NCBI RefSeq assembly: GCF_013402875.1
Contig: NZ_CP058579.1
Location: 2,728,001 to 2,792,000 of the forward strand
Reading direction: 5' to 3'
DNA: 64,000 nucleotides
DNA from: Halorarum salinum
GTDB taxonomy: Archaea > Halobacteriota > Halobacteria > Halobacteriales > Haloferacaceae
A program made the translations under genes and the position numbers. Below are positions 35,663-36,184 of this stretch, piece after piece (within the stretch, counting starts at the first letter, position 1; each line of letters starts with the position of its first letter). The notes under the pieces were generated by a model. That model was not told the DNA's origin. It worked only from the letters and a program-made list of their open reading frames with translations, and made no database searches.

Positions 35663-35752
35663 TTAGCGAACGTTCTTCCGTCGTTTGCCGTTCTCGGATT
35701 CGTTGTGCTATCGCCGACAGCACCGCAGCTACTCCGGCGACGACCGCGGAAG

Positions 35753-35868
35753 CCCCCGCGGCTCTCGGCTCGGGGGCCTCGCTGCGCGCTTCGCGCTCGC
35801 TCCGTTCGCGCTCCAGCGCTTGCGTCGTCCACCGTCGCCGAGAGCCGCGGCCCCTTCCATTCCCACCC
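35753..35868 (-). repeat. Structured element, copy A (minus orientation)
   Basis: Read on the minus strand it opens GGTGGGAATGGAAGGGG, then CCGCGGCTCTCGGC, a purine-biased core of GCGAGC/GAACGGAGCG character, and closes with the perfect 14-nt complement GCCGAGAGCCGCGG followed by GGGGCT. Arms: 35837-35850 and 35756-35769. The opening and closing blocks match copy B. Confidence 0.7.
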
Positions 35869-35899
35869 TGCCGGCTTCCCGACCGGGCGAAGCAGGCCC

Positions 35900-35929
35900 G
35901 ACTACCGAACGCGCACGCCGTCGGTAGTC
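35900..35929 (+). terminator. Perfect 9-bp hairpin between the two elements
   Basis: GACTACCGA (35900-35908) is the exact complement of TCGGTAGTC (35921-35929) with a twelve-base loop. It may end the ndk message or an RNA from copy A; there is no U-tract, so the role is open. Confidence 0.4.
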
Positions 35930-36055
35930 TACGGTGACGCTAGCCGGTTGACGGTCGACGGGATGCGGCGGGCGCACCGCGAGCGACCAGCGGGAGCGGG
36001 CCGCGCCCGCCGGGGAGGCGTGGGGAGCCCACGCGACGACCCGACCGTCCCACGG

Positions 36056-36184
36056 GGTGGGACTGAAAGGGGCCGGCTTCTCGGGGAAGGCGCGGACCGT
36101 CAAGCACCGCGGGAACGAGGCCGAAGGCCGAGTGACGAGGAGCGCGGCGGCCGCACCGAGCCGAGAAGCCGGGGCTTTCAAGTC
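36056..36184 (+). repeat. Structured element, copy B (plus orientation)
   Basis: Opens GGTGGGACTGAAAGGGGCC, continues with arm GGCTTCTCGG (36075-36084), a purine-rich core, and closes with arm CCGAGAAGCC (36161-36170) and GGGGCTTTCAAGTC (36171-36184). The outer GACTGAAAG and CTTTCAAGTC also pair, so the whole about 125 nt can fold as one long hairpin. The opening block is 17 of 19 identical to copy A. Confidence 0.7.

Follow-up and report, generated by a model that had tools for sequence, protein, structure and literature searches.

A dispersed family of paired hairpin repeats with covarying arms in Halobacteriales

The intergenic region between ndk and cofD of the haloarchaeon Halorarum salinum carries two hairpin units in inverse orientation, here called A and B, separated by a centre of 186 bp. 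We consider it moderately probable that this region is one composite of a non-autonomous, dispersed family of mosaic hairpin repeats in haloarchaea. Members of the family share a fold, a particular folding strand and an organisation in inverted pairs, and they are restricted to Halobacteriales. They are scattered through intergenic DNA with no preference for gene orientation, are variably present or absent between close species, and include mosaic copies whose identity ends just past CTTTC. Taken with large differences in copy number, these features point to a non-autonomous element, and the presence of conserved unpaired bases on one folded strand suggests that single-stranded hairpins are recognized.

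The original prediction, made from the letters of the 64 kb window (the whole stretch of H. salinum DNA that was analysed), described two inverted copies of one structured layout at this locus, which both the sequence and covariance-model matches bear out (Table 1). Its limits for the copies (35868-35753 and 36056-36184) have been adjusted by the model. The opening blocks, GGTGGGAATGGAAGGGGCC in A and GGTGGGACTGAAAGGGGCC in B, are indeed 17/19 identical, differing at two positions, and a search of the window for the motif GGTGGGANTGNAAGGGG, allowing at most two mismatches, returns only the 2 sites in A and B, against a chance expectation of 0.16. The arm of A was correctly given as 14 perfect base pairs; that of B has 12, also perfect, instead of 10. 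Overlooked at first were an additional outer stem of 5 bp in both copies, which a G-rich internal loop sets apart from the arm, the recurrence of the 186-bp centre elsewhere in the genome, and the nature of the region as a single composite. This type I centre also lies between inverted units at loci L006, L019, L020, L026, L029 and L034. As had been proposed, there is no plausible protein: the long ORFs spanning the region lack coding support, and copies elsewhere are intergenic.

Table 1. Features of the composite between ndk and cofD (positions in the window).
Feature	Position	Strand	Description
Whole composite element	35748..36179	.	432 bp; made up of unit A in inverse orientation, the centre and unit B
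Hairpin unit A, inverted copy	35748..35868	-	covariance model from other genera: 91.7 bits, E 1.7e-15
Unit A unpaired 5' tail	35868-35859	-	
Unit A P1, GGAAG/CTTCC	35858-35854 with 35752-35748	-	
Unit A P2 arm	35850-35837 with 35769-35756	-	14 bp, perfect
Unit A GGG/GGG internal loop	between P1 and P2 arm		
Unit A inner core			carries AAGC...GCGCAG motif
Type I centre	35869..36054	.	186 bp; multi-hairpin repeat common to other composites of the H. salinum genome
Hairpin unit B	36055..36179	+	covariance model from other genera: 70.9 bits, E 1.4e-11; individual fold
Unit B unpaired 5' tail	36055-36064	+	
Unit B P1, GAAAG/CTTTC	36065-36069 with 36175-36179	+	
Unit B P2 arm	36073-36084 with 36161-36172	+	12 bp, perfect
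Unit B G-rich internal loop	between P1 and P2 arm		
Unit B inner core			carries AAGCACCGC...GAGGAGCGC

A search of haloarchaeal genomes with a covariance model had been suggested as a check, and it has yielded other copies with compensatory arm changes. The exact 5' block occurs 40 times in the H. salinum genome (4.26 Mb in two contigs; 0 for a reversed control) and up to 78 times in the genomes of relatives. A covariance model built only from other genera recovers both window copies and 48 copies in the H. salinum genome, and it finds matches in 38 of 60 relatives. Among 247 genomes drawn from the phylum, 37 were matched, all belonging to the same order, and roughly 204 from outside that order gave 0 matches. 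These scans scored at most 61 candidates per genome for the relatives and 14 for the phylum, so high counts are lower bounds. Complete genomes of similar-sized relatives contain from 0 to more than 50 copies. When the exact block was compared with 84,980 species genomes, only Halobacteria appeared among the matches listed. A virus-borne element was rejected as an explanation, with 0 exact matches in 2.9 million viral contigs. No Rfam model reached its gathering score in the window (the best over the element is at chance level, E 7), and a description of the family was found neither in Rfam nor in the open-licence papers that the literature search covered.

The basic unit of about 110-130 nt consists of a conserved unpaired GGGTGGGACT tail followed by a hairpin closed by GAAAG/CTTTC (P1). 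Its 5' half reads, in order, GGGTGGGACT, GAAAG, GGG, a copy-specific arm of 12-15 nt, GAA, a second stem and AAGCACCGCAG; a tip of very variable length leads into the 3' half, comprising GAGGAGCGCAG, the second stem, A or GA, the complementary arm, GGG and CTTTC. Individual folding of units repeatedly yields this same structure. Its covariation was scored, with the shared structure, on an alignment of 24 units taken exclusively from other haloarchaeal genera. Pairing is found in 97.4% of cells, 23 of the 31 pairs show double changes, and the score is 0.61; with the 3' letters shuffled, 74% remain paired and the score is 0.18, and a partner shifted by 1-3 columns leaves 34-47% paired. Even the closing stem covaries (GAAAG/CTTTC in 185 units, GGAAG/CTTCC in 24, other combinations in 5), and the first 10 nt of the arm form 129 different sequences among 164 units. 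The folded RNA or DNA hairpin that had been proposed from arm covariation between A and B is thereby established for a dispersed haloarchaeal family. While the stems vary, the unpaired tail, the GGG/GGG loop, GAA and an AAGCACC/GGAGC motif are conserved across genera, and in this last motif both sides change together, from C-G to G-C and from C-G to U-A.

The interior of the unit is less constant. Some units have no inner core, and others (L039, L048, L065 and L149) retain the usual ends around a different core, GGTCGGGTCAGCGACCCCTATC...GATATGTCG, as though one core had been swapped for another. At L026 (1707+), L037 (983-), L220 (1499+) and L245 (1499-) the core is inverted relative to the outer arms, which speaks for inversion at the DNA level between the arms. 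The loops of L028, L031, L037, L127, L139 and L148, from several genera, contain a nested module of two hairpins, GTGGTTCGA[stem]TCGTCATCACGA[stem]TCGAACGACA. Separately, GTGGGANTGAA resembles the 3' end of haloarchaeal CRISPR repeats; an interpretation of the tail as CRISPR-repeat-like was dropped, since GAAAG is the paired strand of P1 and no repeat palindrome or array is present.

Mismatches within the arms reveal which strand folds. There are 112 G.T or T.G mismatches and 27 A.C or C.A mismatches under a selection that treats the two kinds alike (p 1.7e-13, a value overstated because copies are related). Cruciforms in duplex DNA would give equal numbers, because an A.C on one strand is a G.T on the other. 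The excess of G.T over A.C therefore identifies the strand beginning with GGGTGGGACT as the folding strand. The folded molecule may equally be RNA or single-stranded DNA, as the wobble bias fits both.

One possibility, which we judge unlikely, is that the units constitute a folded RNA family: they would be transcribed, alone or in a longer transcript, fold, and bind a protein or regulate near or distant genes. Both marks of a structured RNA, covariation and tolerance of G.U on one strand, are present; the covariation is very strong and accompanied by conserved loops, G.U but not A.C is accepted on the GGGTGGG strand, and 90% of units have their lower free energy on the plus strand. Moreover, conserved intergenic small RNAs of unknown function have been described in Halobacteria by a haloarchaeal community study (PMC7002113). 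Against this stands the genomic context. None of 284 copies has a TATA-like box at -45 to -15, by which an independent RNA gene with its own archaeal promoter was rejected, and another GC-rich hairpin usually lies upstream of the unit. Copies occupy tandem, divergent and convergent gaps in the proportions 131/64/57, compared with a background of 176/84/67 (gaps of at least 60 bp), and in tandem gaps 74 units run along the genes and 57 against them. Given this lack of gene-orientation bias and of a T-tract after the hairpin, a cis-acting leader, terminator or 3' UTR element was likewise rejected. Furthermore, any transcript across an inverted pair would have one of the two units on its wrong strand, close species differ in copy number and position, and there is no Rfam family. 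The earlier suggestion of a dispersed non-coding RNA family or a miniature element holds as to a dispersed haloarchaeal family. As to its kind, the divergent pairs, the missing promoter, the indifference to gene orientation, the mosaicism and the turnover between species make a miniature element the better fit.

About 90% of 301 copies are intergenic, and the remainder appear mostly to be 5' over-extensions of ORFs (genes were called with a codon-based caller, whose calls are approximate in GC-rich DNA). Among the matches listed in annotated haloarchaeal plasmid records, nearly all have no underlying gene.

The composite appears to be the dispersed entity. Neighbouring units nearly always diverge, with their tails facing each other (46 such pairs and 1 other arrangement), and the centres between them, 15-330 bp overall, fall into separate length classes. 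The commonest class measures 15-27 bp and is often a palindrome such as AGCCGGTTGGTCAACCGGCT; a second, to which the window composite belongs, spans about 179-193 bp; and a third, of 195-324 bp, contains a further hairpin repeat that ends in GGAGGCTGGGGAGGGTGAGG. In a short composite, one strand is predicted to fold into a four-way junction in which both lateral hairpins are intact. The outer flanks of a composite are alike in inverse orientation, agreeing at 5.9 of 10 bases versus 4.2 between different composites; none of 20,000 permutations reached this value, to which lineage-specific end types contribute. A check of complete composites for target site duplication found inverted, not direct, similarity between the flanks.

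Additional modules accompany many units. Directly upstream of many of them (L002-L038; for example the minus strand of L012, -110 to -1) is a second module, CGCGCGAGGGACGAGCACCGCAG...GAGGAGCGCAGGAGGCTGGGGAGGGTGAGGTGCGGTGCGGTG, which has a AGCACCGCAG...GAGGAGCGCAG motif in common with the units and is absent from the window. Extra copies of the 3' end alone (CCGCGGGGGCTTTCGGGAACTGCTCC) follow the unit at a spacing of about 57-70 bp at L003, L004, L007, L008, L018 and L025. An autonomous parent lying between divergent units was considered and rejected: the only pair 1-2 kb apart in the H. salinum genome (1665193/1666578) appears from its sequence to enclose a thioredoxin reductase-like gene. Neither an autonomous version nor a linked transposase turned up, and no autonomous copy was seen between units.

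Comparison of species shows both persistence and turnover. The original prediction called for a conserved position in relatives, and the ndk-cofD composite is shared with Halobaculum sp. XH14 at 82% identity through the region; the ndk-cofD gap of H. halophilum has no copy. That gap (L069) appears to hold a small ORF in place of the element. Across H. salinum, XH14 and H. halophilum several sites are common and many are not, with some unshared sites containing only debris. A clean empty site with defined ends was not obtained among the available species, where intergenic DNA is too diverged. At shared sites the arms differ between species yet remain complementary, as in CCGGGCGCTGGGC/GCCCAGCGCCCGG versus CCGGGCGCTCGCT/AGCGAGCGCCCGG. 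Two sites in XH14 carry a 425-bp copy of the composite, 91.5% identical, whose identity stops just past CTTTCGAGGTGT; other XH14 copies have only blocks in common. Near-identical and block-sharing copies, considered with the complementary arms at shared sites, indicate copying or exchange of units within a genome, with pairing kept where they stay.

The long persistence of shared sites with intact pairing would also fit a host function or correction between copies. A host DNA site, forming a cruciform or hairpin for chromosome organisation, supercoiling, replication or recombination and dispersed because it is useful, is nevertheless improbable in our estimation. BIMEs and gyrase reportedly offer a precedent, and such a role agrees with pairing that is kept although arms change, with tens of copies across the chromosome and with purely intergenic placement. 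However, the range of copy numbers among similar-sized relatives marks the element as dispensable, and an extruded duplex would treat the strands alike, whereas the wobble bias is 4 to 1. Least credible and already disfavoured are neutral palindromic relics of no present function, in which template switching, or conversion from arm to arm or copy to copy, keeps the arms identical: occasional core inversion and module exchange between copies do imply DNA-level exchange, but across genera the stems vary around conserved internal loops, bulges and unpaired motifs, and arm correction would produce no bias of G.T over A.C.

For the non-autonomous mosaic repeat that we prefer, we infer the step that leads from recognition to movement. 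Two inverted units around a centre constitute the composite. A trans-acting protein would recognize the folded single strand of each unit through its tail, GGG/GGG loop, GAA loop and AAGCACC/GGAGC motif, and would copy or exchange the composite into intergenic DNA in a manner analogous to REPINs and BIMEs. This putative protein would be something other than a Y1 transposase of the IS200/RAYT type, and the composite would be predicted to end just beyond GAAAGCCCC...GGGGCTTTC plus about 8 bp. More tentatively, and with distinctly less confidence, the family may represent an ancient Halobacteriales-wide class of mobile or functional hairpins, with tens of copies in each genome and so far uncatalogued as a family, whose folded strand (DNA or RNA) is recognized by a putative non-Y1 enzyme. 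The family is abundant between the genes of an entire archaeal order and detectable with one covariance model, its covariation is as clear as that of accepted RNA families, and current haloarchaeal annotation leaves its copies blank. As an archaeal counterpart of REP/BIME apparently lacking a known mobilising enzyme, it implies that there is a new mobiliser to be found, or else a new host structure.

The closest parallels are REP, BIME and REPIN sequences, which are likewise hairpins scattered between genes, with a conserved, unpaired tag at the 5' end and complementary stem changes. REP/BIME elements also occur in intergenic DNA as mosaics and as inverted pairs around a spacer (PMC2817692). 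However, a REP palindrome comprises 20-40 nt with a GTAG or CGTC tag, whereas the haloarchaeal unit has 110-130 nt and a GGGTGGGACT tail, contains an internal conserved motif and is restricted to Halobacteriales. The Y1 transposase domain PF01797 is absent from the H. salinum genome and from G001 (H. halophilum), G002 (XH14), G008, G015, G034, G042, G053 and G059 (the latter eight with 25-59 copies), and it is present in G003, G007, G010 and G030, which have 0 copies; some copy-rich genomes (G016, G021 and G023) also have it. Because Y1 is missing from many copy-rich genomes and present in genomes with no copies, membership in REP/BIME fails and RAYT/IS200-driven REPs were rejected.

Bacterial ERIC and BOX sequences are intergenic, structured and partly modular repeats of about 100-200 nt that are thought to be non-autonomous mobile elements. 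The haloarchaeal family resembles them by description in size, intergenic structure and modularity, and we know of no comparable copy-specific covarying arms in ERIC or BOX. The attC sites of integrons act as a folded single strand of one DNA strand, and have variable sequence, conserved structure, bulges and a variable tip. The family is similar in that one particular strand folds, structure is conserved over sequence, and bulges and a variable tip are present. Unlike attC, its units lie outside cassette arrays, were not seen in association with an integron integrase, and carry their conserved sequence in the tail and inner motif.

Haloquadratum offers SMRs, PATEs and MITEs as examples of short transposase-free repeats in a haloarchaeon (PMC3119063). 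SMR-A is about 110 bp long with inverted ends, reaches 54 copies, makes no target duplication, targets PATEs and IS605 elements, and is highly conserved in sequence; PATEs are related to IS605-type elements and possess palindromes and no inverted ends (PMC3119063). In contrast to the Haloquadratum repeats, the arms of the present family differ in nearly every copy and its units stand in divergent pairs, and, unlike those of a PATE, the ends of its composite are inverted copies of each other.
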